From: a virus
Direction: 5' to 3' (one strand)
Virus record (IMG/VR): IMGVR_UViG_3300049846_000568
Coordinates: 1-64,000 of that record
DNA length: 64,000 nucleotides
Shown here: one piece after another, positions 5,336 through 13,604 of the stretch
How positions within the stretch are numbered: position 1 is the first letter of the stretch
Layout: each line of letters opens with the position of its first letter
Translations under genes and position numbers: made by a program
Notes under the pieces: generated by a model
Databases searched by the model: none
Seen by the model: the letters and a program-made list of their open reading frames with translations, nothing else
What the model was told of the DNA's origin: nothing

Positions 5336-5705
5336 CTTAGATCCGGTTTCAAAGTTTACCTTCAACGCATCCCTCGCAGCCGACGCCAAGGCGGCGAACG
5401 ATGCGATGATTGATGCGATGCAAAACAGGATCGACAAGATCATCGACCTGTTTACCGTGTCGGACATCCCTGTCATCAGGGGAATTCTAGGCGTAAGCCA
5501 CGACAAAGACGAGCTTAAGGGGCTCGCCAAAGGACTTGACCGGGTGGCCGATCTCATAGGCGTCCTTGACGAACTAGAACTTCGCAAGAAGATTCTAGAG
5601 TACGCCGAAGCAGATCCCACCTGGTTTGCTAGCGCTTTCGCTGATCTCGAATCAGAGGTTGAGCGCGTCATTACCTTAGACACCGAAGATCAGGATTTAA
5701 CGTAG
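5298..5705 (+). CDS. acidic helical protein, 135 aa
   Basis: ATG 5298 lies inside the previous gene, which suggests coupling. The protein is acidic, rich in alanine, aspartate and leucine, and predicted almost entirely helical (repeated A/D-rich heptad-like stretches at about 25-55 and 75-110). No cysteines, no enzyme motif. It ends four bases before the E2-like/zinc-ribbon gene and may be the first member of the conjugation-pathway operon, but nothing in its sequence shows a role there. Confidence 0.65.
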   Translation: MSDQVRPEALPDNLDPVSKFTFNASLAADAKAANDAMIDAMQNRIDKIIDLFTVSDIPVIRGILGVSHDKDELKGLAKGLDRVADLIGVLDELELRKKILEYAEADPTWFASAFADLESEVERVITLDTEDQDLT

Positions 5706-5709
5706 CGCT

Positions 5710-7047
5710 ATGAAAAGAAGCATCTCCCTAGATGAATCAGGGCTGAAGTCGATCATTGATATGGGTGCGGGAGCATCCAGATCCGATGACATTGATCTTG
5801 TCTCAGCCCTCAAGGTAATGGGTAACATGGGATATCTCAACACCGGATTGATGCCTACCGATGGCTCCGGTGTGGTCAGTGTGCGACGCGCACTTGGATA
5901 CACCCAGGTTGCATTCCAGATGGCTCCAGGTGCATACTTCACCATCTGGGGCGAGTATGAAGGTGCAAGTAGCGCCAAGAACTACATGCTCGCCCACCCT
6001 TACAGACTGTTTGTCGTTGATTTCAACGGCAACCAGTTCATGGGTGCTCGCCATTTCCTTGCAACTGCACCGATCAATTCACTTGATCAGCAGTTGTACC
6101 ATGTCAACCTACCGAACACGAACTGCCGTGGTTACAGCCGAGGAGTAACCGTTGGTTGGACGTGTCTGTATGGTCACGACATCCCCACCAAGCTAGAAAC
6201 ATTTGGTGAGTGGATTCACTGGGCGGTGCTTCGAATGAGCGGTGACGAAGCCTACAACGACGGTAATATGTACAAAACCGACGGGCCGCGTACATACCAG
6301 GAATGGCTCGGAAACGATTCCAAGAAATCATTCTTGTGGAATCCAACCGCTTGGGCAAAAAAGACAGAGGTTGAGGGATGGGAATGGACCCTAGACGAGA
6401 GTCTATGGATGCCCATCAAGGTCGCCAACAAGGATGCGCAAGAGCGTCACGACGCCAATGGCGTACCGTTTACAGTTGAGTTTGCACTGTACGGAAACTA
6501 TTCCGCACAGTACAACGACACCCCCATCCCTCGCCCCTTCAATGTGATTGATCGAGACGACCTTAAGGAACTCGATCCCAAGCTAATTGTCTCGACCATA
6601 ACCGCAGCTGTTGTTGCCGCCAAGAGCGGTAATCCCGCCAAGACGCCTATTGGTTATTGCGCAGCCTCTGGGGCGCCAATCTACAATGGTGATAGGACCT
6701 ACTGGGGCTACGATGCAGGAGGCAAGAAGGTCACCCTACTCGTTGAAGCTGCTGATCCCAACGGTTGGGTGCAAGAGTCGTCCACTGGCGGGTTCATGCA
6801 TAAGGACACGCTCTACCGCGACGTCATCACCAGTAGGTACTACAAGCATGAGGTAAACGGTCAGTCCGTCGCCAAGCGCTGCAACAAATGCCGCAAAGAC
6901 GGCTCTGTCTACTCTGTTCGTTACGGCTCTCGGAAGACCTGGTGTGCTCCATGCTTCCGAAAGTCGGAGCAGGAGAAGATGGCCAAAAGCCAGGCAACAT
7001 CCGCCACCGATACAACCACGGTCAAGCAGGCCAGCACCGACTTCTAA
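5710..7047 (+). CDS. E2-like protein fused to C-terminal zinc ribbon
   Basis: 445 residues, start ATG 5710. Around residues 129-155 it reads LYHVNLPNTN, then a glycine-rich stretch, then GWTCLYG. This parallels the E2 active-site pattern (H-P-N, loop, G-x-x-C) and the LYHxPxxNV..GxxCxG motif of bacterial E2-like (PRTRC-B type) proteins, with a longer loop. The likely acceptor cysteine is C152 (C139 is the alternative). A zinc ribbon with CNKC and CAPC follows near residues 395-425, then a polar T/S-rich tail. By family analogy it would carry the ubiquitin-like protein as a thioester, with the ribbon contacting substrate or E1. It directly precedes the JAB gene. The E2 assignment rests on motif reading and local context, so moderate confidence. 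Confidence 0.6.
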   Translation: MKRSISLDESGLKSIIDMGAGASRSDDIDLVSALKVMGNMGYLNTGLMPTDGSGVVSVRRALGYTQVAFQMAPGAYFTIWGEYEGASSAKNYMLAHPYRLFVVDFNGNQFMGARHFLATAPINSLDQQLYHVNLPNTNCRGYSRGVTVGWTCLYGHDIPTKLETFGEWIHWAVLRMSGDEAYNDGNMYKTDGPRTYQEWLGNDSKKSFLWNPTAWAKKTEVEGWEWTLDESLWMPIKVANKDAQERHDANGVPFTVEFALYGNYSAQYNDTPIPRPFNVIDRDDLKELDPKLIVSTITAAVVAAKSGNPAKTPIGYCAASGAPIYNGDRTYWGYDAGGKKVTLLVEAADPNGWVQESSTGGFMHKDTLYRDVITSRYYKHEVNGQSVAKRCNKCRKDGSVYSVRYGSRKTWCAPCFRKSEQEKMAKSQATSATDTTTVKQASTDF

Positions 7048-7071: not shown

Positions 7072-8337
7072 ATGTCTGATACCCCCGACGATCTCATCGC
7101 AGAAGAGGATATCCCCTTCTTTATGCTCGATGAGTGGACGAAGTGCTACATCGCGCTTGACTCTCTCGAAGATACCTGCAAGCACCTCGATGCTGCTGGT
7201 CTAGAGAACTACTACGTTCTCGCCATGGAGAAGCGTACGTTCGACTCCACCAACTCTGCTGGCGCAACCACGACTTCGGTGCGCTATAACCCGCAGGTGT
7301 TTGCGGTCAACACCACGATCTGTTACCGCGCGATCTCGCCAGTGGAGCACAAAGAAGTGCCGCTGGAGGAGATGGAGACTCGTGCGTCCTTTACCCTCCC
7401 AAGGATCCCCGCAGATATCGTCAATAGGCTTGACGATTTCTTCCGTCTGGTTGATCGCACTCACGGCACTGAATCTATCGTTCTACTTACCTTCGACCCG
7501 AATGCGGTCGATGAGGACGGTCGATGGAGCAGCGATGGCTGGGGTGTGCTTGTCCCCGACCAGGAGAACACCGCCACCGACTGCGAGTACGATCCAACAA
7601 GCGCCGCAGACAAGAAAGATGAGGACGTCTACATCGTAGGCTCGGTGCACAGCCATCCTCACATGAGCGCTTTCGCTTCGGGTACCGACCACAAGGATCA
7701 GAAGCACTTCGACGGTCTGCATATCACCTACGGTTGGCAGTCAAGCGTACAGAACGGCGCCACGCAGTATCATATCGAGCTGCAGATCAACGGCACGGTT
7801 TGGAGCCTCAAGCCCGAGCAGGTGTTTGAGTCTGAGCCCCCTCGTGTTCCTGACCCCTCCGTAGAGGAGTGGATGGCGAACGTCAAAAAAAAGACATACA
7901 GCACAGGGTACTCACGGCAGGGGAGCTCTCACAGCTCGCATGGGAGTACTACGGGTACATCTAGTCACCGCAGTGGCGGTTCTCTACAGCGAAGCATGCG
8001 CCTCCAGGAGATCAAGGGGCTTCCCACCGGTGCCCCCGACTGGAAGGAGAACATCCTCGTAGGACGCCTAAAAAGCACTACTGAAGAGGATTGCCCGTTC
8101 TGCAACCAGCCCCTGATCTCGCCGGACCGGACCAATCGTCTGTGCTCCGCATGCCACATGTACCTCGCAATGCCTGGCGAGACGGTCGAGGATGTGTTCA
8201 AGCAGCGCAGTGACGAGCAGCTCTACACCTGGGATATCGACCTCGAAGAGAACCCGACCAAGCCCATCGTGCTCTGGGAGCGCGACGTAGATGAGGCGAC
8301 CTTCACCAACGTCTACACCCCGGCGGGAAAAGACTAG
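7072..8337 (+). CDS. JAMM/JAB metalloprotease (deubiquitinase-like)
   Basis: Zinc isopeptidases of this family remove ubiquitin-like tags or trim their C-termini. The complete JAMM signature H-x-H-P-x6-S-x2-D is present: H193, H195, S203 and D206 (SVHSHPHMS ... SGTD). A C-terminal zinc ribbon follows (CPFC ... CSAC, about residues 342-365) after a serine/glycine-rich linker. The 0-frame ends at TAG 8335-8337, but the last sense codons form the slippery heptamer GGGAAAA (8325-8331), and the -1 frame is open without its own start codon. A 628-residue JAB/zinc fusion is therefore likely to be made too. Neighbours are E2-like, E1 and ubiquitin-like genes. Family assignment is strong. Confidence 0.88.
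   Translation: MSDTPDDLIAEEDIPFFMLDEWTKCYIALDSLEDTCKHLDAAGLENYYVLAMEKRTFDSTNSAGATTTSVRYNPQVFAVNTTICYRAISPVEHKEVPLEEMETRASFTLPRIPADIVNRLDDFFRLVDRTHGTESIVLLTFDPNAVDEDGRWSSDGWGVLVPDQENTATDCEYDPTSAADKKDEDVYIVGSVHSHPHMSAFASGTDHKDQKHFDGLHITYGWQSSVQNGATQYHIELQINGTVWSLKPEQVFESEPPRVPDPSVEEWMANVKKKTYSTGYSRQGSSHSSHGSTTGTSSHRSGGSLQRSMRLQEIKGLPTGAPDWKENILVGRLKSTTEEDCPFCNQPLISPDRTNRLCSACHMYLAMPGETVEDVFKQRSDEQLYTWDIDLEENPTKPIVLWERDVDEATFTNVYTPAGKD
8325..8331 (+). other. -1 programmed frameshift site GGGAAAA
   Basis: In the JAB frame the codons are GCG GGA AAA GAC TAG, so G-GGA-AAA fits the X-XXY-YYZ slippery rule exactly. A -1 slip continues as GGG AAA AGA CTA GGA and stays open for 208 more residues. A small hairpin (CTTCTC/GAGAAG, 8345-8360) and GGAGG (8337-8341) lie just downstream. 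The -1 frame has no ATG, GTG or TTG between its previous stop (TGA 8292) and TTG 8409. Confidence 0.72.
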
Positions 8338-8957
8338 GAGGCGTCTTCTCTACAGAGAAGGTAAACGGCGAAGAGCTAGGGTACTGCCCCACATGCTCAG
8401 CCGTTCTCTTGTCTGAGTATGAGCGAAGCCTCCCCAAATGCCCATACTGCGAGGCGCCTCTTAATGTGGAGGCAGGGTGGTACATCAAGTGCGAAAAATG
8501 CAATGCGCCACTCGAAATAGAATCTCCGATGTGCGAGAACTGCCACGAGATCTACTACGACGATTTCTGGACGAAATTCCTAGATGAATGGGATCCAGAG
8601 TTGGACCTTATCGACTTCGATGAGATGGAAGAGGTCGAAGTAGACTACACCAAGATGTACAAAGACTCTCACAACCTATGCTGCAATATGCCGCCTGAAC
8701 AGTGTGAATGTTTGCGTAAGGCAACATGGAACGACCTATACGACGTTGGTCTTGACTATGTCGAGCAGTACCAAGGAGATATGGATTCACCGTGTTGGCA
8801 GTGCAATAGGGTATGTGAAGCATCGTGTCCACCACTTCGAGTGTGGGCGCGCGAAGCAATCTTGGGCGCTAGAGATATCGGGAAGATATCTCCGTGTTCG
8901 GAGTTTGTTTCTTGGGATTCCGTTTCCGTTGGTCCAATACAGGACTACGAATACTGA
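8331..8957 (+). CDS. multi-zinc-ribbon domain, probable frameshift extension of JAB
   Basis: Read in the -1 frame relative to the JAB gene. It contains a chain of cysteine pairs: YCPTC, KCPYC, KCEKC, MCENC, then CCNM..CEC and CWQC..CEASC, separated by an acidic aromatic stretch (DEWDPELDLIDFDEMEE). These look like two or three zinc ribbons, loosely like RING or rubredoxin knuckles. The only in-frame start, TTG 8409, has no ribosome-binding site and would delete the first ribbon half (YCPTC), so fusion to JAB by frameshift is the better model. If RING-like, it could select substrates for tagging or de-tagging (inference). It ends 17 bases before the E1 gene. Confidence 0.7.
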   Translation, partial: RLGGVFSTEKVNGEELGYCPTCSAVLLSEYERSLPKCPYCEAPLNVEAGWYIKCEKCNAPLEIESPMCENCHEIYYDDFWTKFLDEWDPELDLIDFDEMEEVEVDYTKMYKDSHNLCCNMPPEQCECLRKATWNDLYDVGLDYVEQYQGDMDSPCWQCNRVCEASCPPLRVWAREAILGARDIGKISPCSEFVSWDSVSVGPIQDYEY

Positions 8958-8974
8958 TAGGATCAGACTAACCA

Positions 8975-9778
8975 ATGGCTGACAAGGCATATAGGTTCGT
9001 AGTGATTGGCGCAGGCGGCATCGGATCGTCCCTGTGCAATTACCTCGCGATGATGCTGGAGTACAAGGCACCATTTTCGGGCCTACTCATCGTAGATGGC
9101 GACACATTCGAACCAAAGAACAAAGAGCGCCAGCTCTTCAAGGAGTATGGCAACAAGGCTGAGTCTCTCGCAGCCGATCTCGCACCTCAATACTCCAAGA
9201 CCGCCATCATTCCCATTGGGAAGTGGGTGGTGGAGACGGTTCCAGAGGATGCGGAGAGCGATACTCTGATCACCGCCGCGAGCCTACTACAGGAGGGTGA
9301 CGTAATCTTCCCCGTAGTAGACAACTTCAAGGCACGTAAGCTCATCTTCGACGTTGCTTCCACCATGGACAACATCGATGTAATCTCTGCTGGTAATGAC
9401 GACGCGCTATTCTGTAGCATGTACCACTACCAGCGTCGAGATGGTAAGGATGTAACCATGCATCCGCGCCACCTTCACCCGGAGTATGAGAACCCACCGG
9501 ATCGAAACCCGGGTGAACTCAGCTGTCAGGAGCGAGCCGCTATCGAAGGCGGTACTCAGCTTCTGGCAGCAAATGTTGGAGCTACCGCACTCATCCTAGG
9601 AAAGGTGCAGACGGTAGTATTCGACGCAGCAGAGCGAGACGACGAGAATGAGGACTACCCAGACGAAACGTTCTGGCAGATGGACCAGGGTCTCGCCGCA
9701 TCGTTCAACCGTTCAGCTGAACAACTGGCGTCGGCGGAAGTCGAGGCTGGTACTCTTACAACTACAGGAGTAAGTTAA
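8975..9778 (+). CDS. thiF-like: E1-like activating enzyme (ThiF/MoeB fold)
   Basis: Adenylates the C-terminus of a ubiquitin-like protein and passes it to a cysteine. The 267 residues show the Rossmann nucleotide loop IGAGGIGSS (11-19), the ATP site D41-x-D43 with N49, R52 and Q53 (DGDTFEPKNKERQ), and VDN at 115-117. C184, in the segment PGELSCQER, sits where E1-like proteins of PRTRC-type systems have their conserved cysteine. There are no rhodanese or extra zinc domains, unlike housekeeping ThiF/MoeB. The ubiquitin-like gene starts one base after its stop, implying a functional pair. Family sure; the specific partner is inferred from adjacency. Confidence 0.9.
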   Translation: MADKAYRFVVIGAGGIGSSLCNYLAMMLEYKAPFSGLLIVDGDTFEPKNKERQLFKEYGNKAESLAADLAPQYSKTAIIPIGKWVVETVPEDAESDTLITAASLLQEGDVIFPVVDNFKARKLIFDVASTMDNIDVISAGNDDALFCSMYHYQRRDGKDVTMHPRHLHPEYENPPDRNPGELSCQERAAIEGGTQLLAANVGATALILGKVQTVVFDAAERDDENEDYPDETFWQMDQGLAASFNRSAEQLASAEVEAGTLTTTGVS

Positions 9779-9779
9779 T

Positions 9780-10037
9780 ATGGCTCAGGAAGCGCAGGGT
9801 AGCGCAGCACAGCAGGGCAGCCAGAACGCTCGCGTTCGTTACGGCGTCCACAACCGTCAGGGTGAACTGGCGGGTAAGAGCATTGCGCAGGTTCGCGCAG
9901 AGCTTGGTCGTCCTTGGCAGCTGCCAACGGATGCTTCGGCATTCAAGGGCACCGAGAAGCTTGATGAGGACTACGTCATCAAGCCCGGTGAGTCGATCGA
10001 GTTCCACCGTCGCCAGGGTGAGAAGGGTCTCGCCTGA
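9780..10037 (+). CDS. ubiquitin-like (beta-grasp) modifier protein
   Basis: 85 residues, start ATG 9780, one base after the E1 stop. After a disordered Q/A/S-rich N-terminus (1-16), the rest fits a small beta-grasp fold: beta strand (ARVRYGVHN), turn, amphipathic helix (SIAQVRAELG), then a final strand (SIEFHRRQ). The tail reads G80-E-K-G83-L-A. PRTRC-C ubiquitin-like proteins, as I remember them, end in a similar FRR..G-x-K-G. No terminal diglycine is present; removal of Leu-Ala by the neighbouring JAB enzyme would expose G83. Identified by tail, size and gene neighbours, because beta-grasp proteins have little sequence signature. Confidence 0.72.
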   Translation: MAQEAQGSAAQQGSQNARVRYGVHNRQGELAGKSIAQVRAELGRPWQLPTDASAFKGTEKLDEDYVIKPGESIEFHRRQGEKGLA

Positions 10038-12011: not shown

Positions 12012-13604
12012 GTGAGCCTTGTCGAGCACCTGAAGATCCGCACCCCCCTCGTGTGGGTTAACACTCCTGAGCCAAACCGGTATCAGGATGTTGTTATGCG
12101 GTTCTGCTCATCCGACCTTTATGCAATCGATCCCAAGCTCGGTTTTTCGATCTGGGATCGCAAGTCCAAGCAGTGGAAGCCGATCCTCTTTGAGATCGAG
12201 AACCCCGCCACCGGTGAGGTAATCGAGGCAGCCACCTTCGAGATGAGCTTAGCGATTGGTTATGTGCTGGACAATCCAGGCACCATGATCATTCACTTCG
12301 CTCACAAGGTAGCGGAAGAGATGTCGGGATTGTTCGCGTGGGTCTTTGGCGATTATCGCAAAGCTTTCCACCAGGACGACAAGGCTCTGCTGGGTCCTCA
12401 GTTCGTTCTGTTTAGCCACGGTGCAGATATCCCTCAGGATCTGACGCACCTGCTAACCGTAGTTGAGCCCGCTCTACCAACCAGCACCGAGCTTGCCGAA
12501 ATCGCCGCTCATGTTGAAGCTAGCATTGGCGAGCACCTCACCTCCGAGGTGGACCTTTCCAAGGTTGGTATGTGCGGTATGGGTCTGACTGAACCAGAGT
12601 TCATCCAGTCTTGCTTGTTGAGTGTGCGGGAGCGCAAAGCGCTTGATCCACAGTTCATCAACGAGTACAAGATGGCCAAGATCCGTGCTGGTGGTAACCT
12701 GGAGATCCGCCGTCCTGGCAGTGGTCTTGATAGCATCGGCGGTATGGACAACGCCAAGAAGATGATTCGGCACATCAAGTGGATGTGGGACAATGAAGCG
12801 GAAGCCCACGAGCTTGGCCTCGAGCCGCTACGACGAGTGCTGCTCGTTGGTGTTCCTGGCACTGGTAAGTCTGCGATCTGTGAGGCAACTGCCAAGGAGC
12901 TGGATCTCGATCTTGCTAAGACCGGCATTAGCCAGAGCCTGAACAAGTTCATCGGTCAGTCCGAAGAGAACATGCGTCAGGTCTTCCGCCAGATCCGTGC
13001 CCTTGCTCCTATCGTCTGCTGGATCGATGAGTTCGGTCGAGACGTCTCTCAGGGCAACTGGCAGGGCGATGGTGGTACCACCTCTCGCGTGCACGGAGAG
13101 TTCCTGACTGGTATTCAGGAGCTTCCCAAGAACGTCTTCCTTATGTGCGCCGCCAACCAAATCGGCCACGTCGCCCCCGAGATGCTTCGCGCAGACCGCT
13201 TCGACAAGATCCTCTTCGTCGGCTTCCCGACCAAGTTGGAGCGAGTCGAGATCTTCAAGATTCATCTAGGCGCATCCGCCAACGACTTCGACCTGGAGGC
13301 GCTCGCGGATAACTCTCCAATGTTCACCGGTGCAGAGATCAAGGCCCTCATCCGTGAGACCAAGAGCAATGTCCACATGGAAGAGCGCCGACCCATCACA
13401 ACCAAGGATCTTCTGGACTTCATTCCAAACATGAAGAACAGGATCTGGCTACGCCACCCCAATGAGGTTCGCGATATGTATATCCGAGCACTAGAAGACT
13501 GGGATTGGGCTTCAAGTGCCCAGCAGGGCGAAGCGGCACTAGTCATCGACGGCCGAGCTGGTCAAATCGTAACCAGCGGCAGGCACGCATACTCAGGATT
13601 CTAA
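12012..13604 (+). CDS. AAA+ ATPase, Ycf46-like
   Basis: 530 residues from GTG 12012 (GGGGA upstream). Residues 1-160 form an inactive-looking N-terminal domain of the Ycf46 type. The AAA+ module then has GVPGTGKS (Walker A, 280-287), WIDE (Walker B, 337-340), a sensor asparagine in CAANQ (about 380) and arginines R393/R396 (RADRFD) as candidate fingers, followed by a helical lid (about 410-460). Such ATPases unfold or remodel proteins. Inside a ubiquitin-like module it could extract or unfold tagged proteins, as Cdc48 or proteasomal ATPases do; that link is inferred. There is no FtsH-type protease domain and no proteasome gene nearby. Confidence 0.87.
   Translation: MSLVEHLKIRTPLVWVNTPEPNRYQDVVMRFCSSDLYAIDPKLGFSIWDRKSKQWKPILFEIENPATGEVIEAATFEMSLAIGYVLDNPGTMIIHFAHKVAEEMSGLFAWVFGDYRKAFHQDDKALLGPQFVLFSHGADIPQDLTHLLTVVEPALPTSTELAEIAAHVEASIGEHLTSEVDLSKVGMCGMGLTEPEFIQSCLLSVRERKALDPQFINEYKMAKIRAGGNLEIRRPGSGLDSIGGMDNAKKMIRHIKWMWDNEAEAHELGLEPLRRVLLVGVPGTGKSAICEATAKELDLDLAKTGISQSLNKFIGQSEENMRQVFRQIRALAPIVCWIDEFGRDVSQGNWQGDGGTTSRVHGEFLTGIQELPKNVFLMCAANQIGHVAPEMLRADRFDKILFVGFPTKLERVEIFKIHLGASANDFDLEALADNSPMFTGAEIKALIRETKSNVHMEERRPITTKDLLDFIPNMKNRIWLRHPNEVRDMYIRALEDWDWASSAQQGEAALVIDGRAGQIVTSGRHAYSGF

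Follow-up and report, generated by a model that had tools for sequence, protein, structure and literature searches.

Two forms of a phage JAB metalloprotease predicted from a conserved -1 frameshift signal

Introduction

Programmed ribosomal frameshifting is known mainly from tail-assembly genes in phages and from dnaX and insertion sequences in bacteria. In phage lambda, the gpG/gpGT pair arises by a -1 shift at GGGAAAG, close to where gene G ends (discussed in PMC5009743), and in dnaX the tau/gamma pair by a shift at A AAA AAG, with a hairpin, that truncates the product. Earlier studies in E. coli described G GGA AAA as inefficient, yet it is used by insertion sequences, in which A AAA AAA is among the commonest motifs (PMC4066793). 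A literature search joining the terms "ribosomal frameshifting" and "JAB domain" found no paper, an absence that is not proof, and the available portions of a recoding review and of the GeneTack survey make no mention of JAB or ThiF. Neighbouring JAB and ThiF genes are described for the PRTRC system (protein A, TIGR03735; ThiF, TIGR03736), and the same two are neighbours in the locus described here.

The window is the whole stretch of DNA analysed, 64,000 nucleotides of one strand, corresponding to positions 1 to 64,000 of the viral record IMGVR_UViG_3300049846_000568. Its JAB metalloprotease gene is very probably decoded with a programmed -1 ribosomal frameshift, a reading drawn from the sequences of the window and its relatives.

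Results

A JAB metalloprotease in a predicted ubiquitin-like cassette

The product of the frame-0 JAB gene (Table 1), which on standard decoding is the predicted short form, matches Prok-JAB with an E-value of 2.8e-5. The JAMM residues H193xH195, S203, D206 and E134, which make up the metal site E...HxHx7SxxD, are invariant across the window protein and its relatives. By Foldseek, the closest folds include a Caldiarchaeum Rpn11 homologue (E 1.3e-4) and Pyrococcus JAMM1, with modest TM-scores. Metal site and MPN fold together place the protein among the JAB/JAMM deubiquitinase-like peptidases. Intact JAMM residues, and Rpn11 and JAMM1 as the nearest folds, make the two forms of a deubiquitinase-like enzyme that the first-pass annotation proposed a reasonable prediction.

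The order of neighbours in the cassette is conserved: a putative E2-like protein, JAB, ThiF/E1, a small protein with a GEKG motif, and a Cdc48/p97-like AAA+ ATPase. The E2-like label comes from a by-eye reading of the equivalent ORF in Salmonella phage Arash, since the window protein has no Pfam or NCBIfam match. The small ubiquitin-like candidate likewise has no Pfam match, and in relatives it ends at or just after GEKG; its C-terminus is GEKG in L047 and L013, GEKG-LA in the window and GEKG-SK in L084. Judging from these termini, JAB might trim the residues that follow the GEKG glycine. The JAB and ThiF proteins of Salmonella phage Arash match TIGR03735 and TIGR03736 better than do the window proteins, which score far below the curated PRTRC cut-offs (24.4 versus 101.8 bits for protein A, 21 versus 144.75 bits for ThiF).

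Table 1. Features of the JAB cassette in the window, and the JAB gene ends of relatives with the same split
Feature	Position	Strand	Remarks
Putative E2-like protein, conserved syntenic neighbour	5710..7047	+	40-45% identity in relatives
JAB/JAMM (Rpn11-like) metalloprotease gene, frame 0	7072..8337	+	JAB core and first zinc ribbon (CPFC..CSAC)
Second candidate slippery site, A AAA AAG	7887..7893	+	JAB-core boundary (NVKKK), homologous to sister-clade A AAA AAA G
Slippery heptamer, G GGA AAA	8325..8331	+	identical and in the same place in L012, L047 and L081
-1 frame extension, 208 codons	8331..8957	+	double zinc ribbon (GYCPTC..CPYC, CEKC..CENC) and C-terminal Cys module
Frame-0 stop TAG of short form	8335..8337	+	
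Predicted stimulatory stem-loop	8337..8433	+	outer stem GGAGGC (8337-8342)/GCCTCC (8428-8433), 5 nt past heptamer
TTG, sole standard start codon in this part of the -1 frame, not regarded as the real start	8409..8411	+	no Shine-Dalgarno; after first CxxC
ThiF/E1-like adenylyltransferase	8975..9778	+	ThiF E 1.5e-14; 50-56% identity in relatives
Small ubiquitin-like candidate	9780..10037	+	48-57% identity in relatives; ends ..IEFHRRQGEKGLA
Cdc48/p97/VCP-like AAA+ ATPase	12012..13604	+	AAA and AAA_lid_3; VCP-like ATPase 5vc7 E 4.4e-55
L012, IMGVR_UViG_3300009184_005738			JAB end GCG GGA AAA TAG
L047, IMGVR_UViG_3300021963_009201			JAB end CTG GGA AAA GGC TGA
L081, IMGVR_UViG_3300013132_000047			JAB end TCG GGA AAA GCA TAA
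L084, PXAT01000157.1			JAB end TCA AAA AAA TAA

Heptamer and open -1 frame

The JAB gene of the window ends GCG GGA AAA GAC TAG: a heptamer of the canonical X XXY YYZ form lies in frame 0, with one sense codon between it and the stop. Just after a TGA at 8292, the -1 frame opens at 8295 and runs 208 codons past the heptamer to the TGA at 8955-8957. Its translation, RLGGVFSTEKVNGEELGYCPTCSAVLLSEYERSLPKCPYC..., includes a C-terminal Cys module with the pattern CC..C.C..C..C..C..C. An AlphaFold model of this zinc chain was too poor for use (pLDDT 43). The DZR match begins at the first Cys pair, upstream of the TTG at 8409, which is the sole ATG, GTG or TTG from the upstream stop as far as the second Cys pair; the sequence ahead of it, cccacatgctcagccgttctc, contains no Shine-Dalgarno motif. 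The first-pass annotation is thus borne out as to the heptamer near the JAB stop, the 208-codon frame, and a zinc pair (YCPTC) ahead of the only possible start. The string GGGAAAA occurs in the window as often as expected by chance (7 observed, 6.95 expected), and the case for frameshifting therefore rests on position and conservation; what sets the copy at 8325 apart is not the string itself, but its in-frame placement at a gene end and its conservation.

Relatives with the same split

With a profile of three distant JAB proteins, the family was recovered from viral contigs and one MAG contig. Searches of the viral contigs using the JAB, ThiF or AAA+ protein of the window singly gave no matches, DNA polymerase relatives carried no JAB match, and a tblastn search of phages with the zinc chain gave one match only (E 0.1). 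Four diverged relatives (L012, L047, L081 and L084) share the split, with a zinc chain of 16 cysteines in the -1 frame; with the window, the split members found are thus four with G GGA AAA, plus L084. The JAB proteins of the four relatives are 38-43% identical to that of the window. L012, L047 and L081 show 60-62% identity among themselves and 41-43% to the window, and the five contigs, which come from separate datasets, are 36-62% identical to one another. The four members with G GGA AAA form one clade (tree support 95/89), and the heptamer may therefore have a single origin among them.

A slippery heptamer precedes the JAB stop in all five split members: G GGA AAA zero or one codon ahead of it in the window, L012, L047 and L081, and A AAA AAA immediately ahead of it in L084. 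Among the four GGGAAAA members, the same codon is kept at 13 of 126 invariant residues, and the GGA and AAA of the heptamer are among the 13. Gene-wide, codon identity is found at one of nine invariant Gly and one of five invariant Lys residues, in each case the heptamer codon. The base ahead of GGA is G in all four, despite differing codons (GCG, GCG, CTG and TCG). The heptamer codons are thus conserved beyond the protein sequence. The first-pass annotation had asked for a comparison of related phages, and the outcome, a heptamer and open -1 frame kept against a saturated codon background, is the one it predicted.

The zinc-chain cysteines are invariant in all five split members. The zinc chain could instead be a separate gene, started without frameshifting at TTG 8409 or its equivalent, and the first-pass annotation had named a conserved start codon of this kind as the finding that would tell against it. 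A TTG is in fact conserved at the aligned Leu codon in the window, L012, L047 and L081. The -1 frame is open across the site in all five members, and L012 is the exception in having a start within the overlap, a -1-frame ATG at 7170 that precedes its heptamer by 42 nt. But the TTG follows the first CxxC of the double zinc ribbon, a pair that is invariant in 5/5 and encoded in the -1 frame upstream of any usable start. It also lacks a ribosome-binding site, has no counterpart in L084, and falls within the 3' arm of the predicted stem in L012, L047 and L081. A separate gene would further leave the frozen heptamer codons, and the in-frame fusions found as sister-clade homologues, without a reason. 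We consider a separate zinc gene very unlikely.

An error in sequencing, or a recent mutation that broke the frame of an ancestral fusion gene, would agree with the in-frame sister-clade genes and with a break that adjoins a short A-run. It is already refuted by five contigs from separate datasets in which the break recurs at the same position, beside an identical or equivalent heptamer; both frames, moreover, are still protein-like, and selection holds the heptamer codons. We give this explanation practically no probability.

Predicted stem-loop downstream of the heptamer

Programmed -1 sites are expected to carry a stimulatory structure about 5-9 nt downstream, and one is predicted in the window (beginning 5 nt past the heptamer) and in L012, L047 and L081 (6-8 nt). 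The fold after the heptamer in the window has an energy of -42.2 kcal/mol (z -2.66), and the corresponding z-scores are -3.64 for L012, -4.54 for L047, -4.41 for L081 and -1.19 for L084. Measured against synonymous shuffles that keep the -1 protein, z is -2.50 for the window, where 14 of 1000 shuffles were equally stable, -2.75 for L012, -4.94 for L047, -5.51 for L081 and -0.61 for L084; the L084 fold is not significant by either measure (z -1.2 and -0.6). Among windows across the cassette, the window fold ranks 10 of 260 at 110 nt but 109 of 264 at 70 nt, standing out only at lengths that include the full stem. In L012, L047 and L081, the stem arms lie at equal distance from the heptamer and in corresponding codons. 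Pairing across nine aligned pairs is 92.6%, versus 19-41% when the arms are slid, and three of the pairs have changed on both sides in compensatory fashion, in an alignment from which loops were removed by hand and which is hence biased towards structure.

The small hairpin and the GGAGG that the first-pass annotation saw after the heptamer both exist (the hairpin as CTTCTC/GAGAAG), but GGAGG is not an independent feature. Because GGAGGC pairs with GCCTCC in the best fold, it more plausibly forms the 5' arm of the long predicted stem than a ribosome-binding site. The alternative, that ribosomes end at the TAG at 8335 and restart nearby by means of AGGAGG (8336-8341), making two coupled proteins, has in its favor that AGGAGG overlaps the stop codon. 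It is hard to reconcile with a -1 frame in the window that offers no ATG, GTG, TTG, CTG, ATT, ATC or ATA within 70 nt, and with relatives that lack AGGAGG and form their stem from other sequences; we regard it as extremely improbable.

In-frame fusions with a predicted opposite signal in the sister clade

In about 31 sister-clade loci, L013 (6786-6905) and 30 further (L015, L017, L019, L048-L083), JAB, the first zinc ribbon and the C-terminal Cys module lie in one ORF that is followed by ThiF (tree support 84/91). By Cys counts, these fusions lack the double zinc ribbon present in split members; the C-terminal Cys module of the window's -1 extension is common to both. The in-frame fusions favor a frameshift product over two separate proteins, and thereby support the original proposal that frameshifting fuses JAB to the zinc-ribbon chain, alongside the conserved heptamer and open frame.

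The sequence A AAA AAA G occurs at the end of the JAB core in 31 of 31 sister-clade loci, as GTA AAA AAA G or TCA AAA AAA G. From the codon usage of each locus, the chance of this pattern is about 0.11, a figure to be read with the fact that related sequences are not independent. A hairpin of a C-run and a G-run follows after about 5-9 nt, and scores z -1.9 to -8.0 (mean -3.55) versus synonymous shuffles. In the sister-clade alignment RNAalifold returned three consensus pairs only and no covariation, since the G-runs had been split by MAFFT and there is hardly any variation in the C/G stem; the hairpin was therefore assessed by single folds and synonymous shuffles.

The -1 frame past this site is open for 33-47 codons in 29 of 29 distinct members. 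The standard deviation of tail length is 3.8, versus 15 in synonymous shuffles, and no shuffled set was that long throughout. Ser, Gly, Tyr and Trp make up 52% of the tails, versus 19% in frame 0, and the tails follow the pattern SxPPxxGG...YxxW, with a Trp within the last ten residues in 29/29 members, versus 0.33 per synonymous shuffle. Variability at frame-0 codon positions 3, 1 and 2 in the overlap, for close pairs, is 0.365, 0.290 and 0.419, so that the second position, normally the least variable, is the most variable, a pattern that selection on the -1 frame would produce; these figures come from an alignment of the -1 frame, and a plain DNA alignment gives the same shift more weakly. 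Slipping in the sister clade would remove the zinc chain: standard decoding would yield the fused protein, and slipping back one base at A AAA AAA G with its hairpin would yield a short JAB with a Ser/Gly/Tyr-rich tail and the predicted junction peptide ..VKKSAPPSGGFGYAGG...

The homologous candidate site in the window has a 23-codon -1 tail, DIQHRVLTAGELSQLAWEYYGYI, ending WEYYGYI, and no strong hairpin follows it (-9.9 kcal/mol).

The -1 frame could also be reached by slippage of RNA polymerase on an A-run, a known mechanism (reviewed in PMC5009743), rather than by ribosomes. The A7 runs of the sister clade and L084 are moderately long, in agreement with this; the window clade has only A4, too short for polymerase slippage, and the paired G triplet, spacer and stems are the anatomy of ribosomal frameshifting. 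Polymerase slippage is accordingly a most improbable route.

Other observations were made in JAB genes outside these sites. L033 (6981-7350), a distant JAB gene, carries A AAA AAA G together with a hairpin of -22 kcal/mol; its frame 0 stops 15 codons past the heptamer, and its -1 frame runs 122 codons. It is possibly a third independent frameshift in the JAB gene family, with a -1 tail that shows no similarity to other phage JAB tails. L034 has an in-frame CCCTTTT in its JAB gene at 6849, followed by a 139-codon -1 opening, and L084 an in-frame GGGAAAA at the end of the JAB core, at 5572, with a 54-codon -1 opening. L055 and L068 are two different JAB cassettes about 215 kb apart on IMGVR_UViG_3300042868_009074 (267766 bp), representing either a duplicated cassette or a chimeric assembly.

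Discussion

In the decoding we propose for the window, the stem-loop 5 nt downstream would slow ribosomes on GCG GGA AAA, and tRNAs on GGA and AAA would re-pair on GGG and AAA. The majority of ribosomes would stop one codon on, giving a 421-residue protein with JAB and one zinc ribbon. A minority would continue in the -1 frame, adding 208 residues with the double zinc ribbon and second Cys-rich module for a product of about 628 residues, whose predicted junction peptide is ..TPAGKRLGGVFSTEK... From sequence we infer that ribosomes slip in cells, how often they do so, and what part the zinc chain plays. Given the inefficiency attributed to G GGA AAA in E. coli, despite its use by insertion sequences, the long form is probably the minority product in this phage; the efficiency measure is that of E. 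coli and may not be that of the phage host.

We infer that the cassette constitutes a viral system for ubiquitin-like conjugation and unfolding, with the zinc chain tethering some of the JAB molecules to a partner. Our best guess is that the chain would dock JAB to the Cdc48-like ATPase, a conjugated substrate or nucleic acid, and that the short form would serve as free peptidase for the ubiquitin-like protein.

The two clades appear to follow opposite logic, G GGA AAA near the gene end adding the chain and A AAA AAA G with its hairpin at the core boundary removing it. It is likely that the cassette of E1, ubiquitin-like candidate, JAB and Cdc48-like ATPase conserves two JAB forms, the signal having moved and reversed, and that selection keeps the ratio rather than the signal. 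Two sister clades arriving at one pair of products through different signals of opposite logic would constitute a natural experiment, suggesting that the ratio of forms is selected. Phage frameshifting here would control a JAMM peptidase in a viral ubiquitin-like system with a Cdc48-like ATPase. For annotation, the consequence is that gene callers miss the true start of the zinc chain, and that the sister clade's conserved short tail probably goes unannotated.

The JAMM fold and active-site motif are common to the window JAB and to the Caldiarchaeum subterraneum Rpn11 homologue and Pyrococcus JAMM1, from which the window protein differs in being phage-encoded, with zinc-ribbon extensions and a predicted frameshift. 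The zinc chain and Cdc48-like ATPase are, to our knowledge, not part of the PRTRC system, and we know of no relationship of the window JAB to the gene families of lambda gpG/gpGT or dnaX. The sister-clade signal, A AAA AAA G with a GC-rich hairpin 5-9 nt downstream, would truncate the product, as the dnaX tau/gamma signal does; it belongs to a different gene family, and its -1 tail is not a short run to a stop but a conserved 33-47 codons with Trp near the end. The window signal resembles that of lambda gpG/gpGT in having a GGG AAA-type heptamer near the end of a short ORF, with a C-terminal extension predicted for a minority of products. The gene it would govern is no tail-chaperone gene: it encodes a JAB metalloprotease within a ubiquitin-like cassette, with a predicted downstream stem-loop and an extension made of zinc ribbons.
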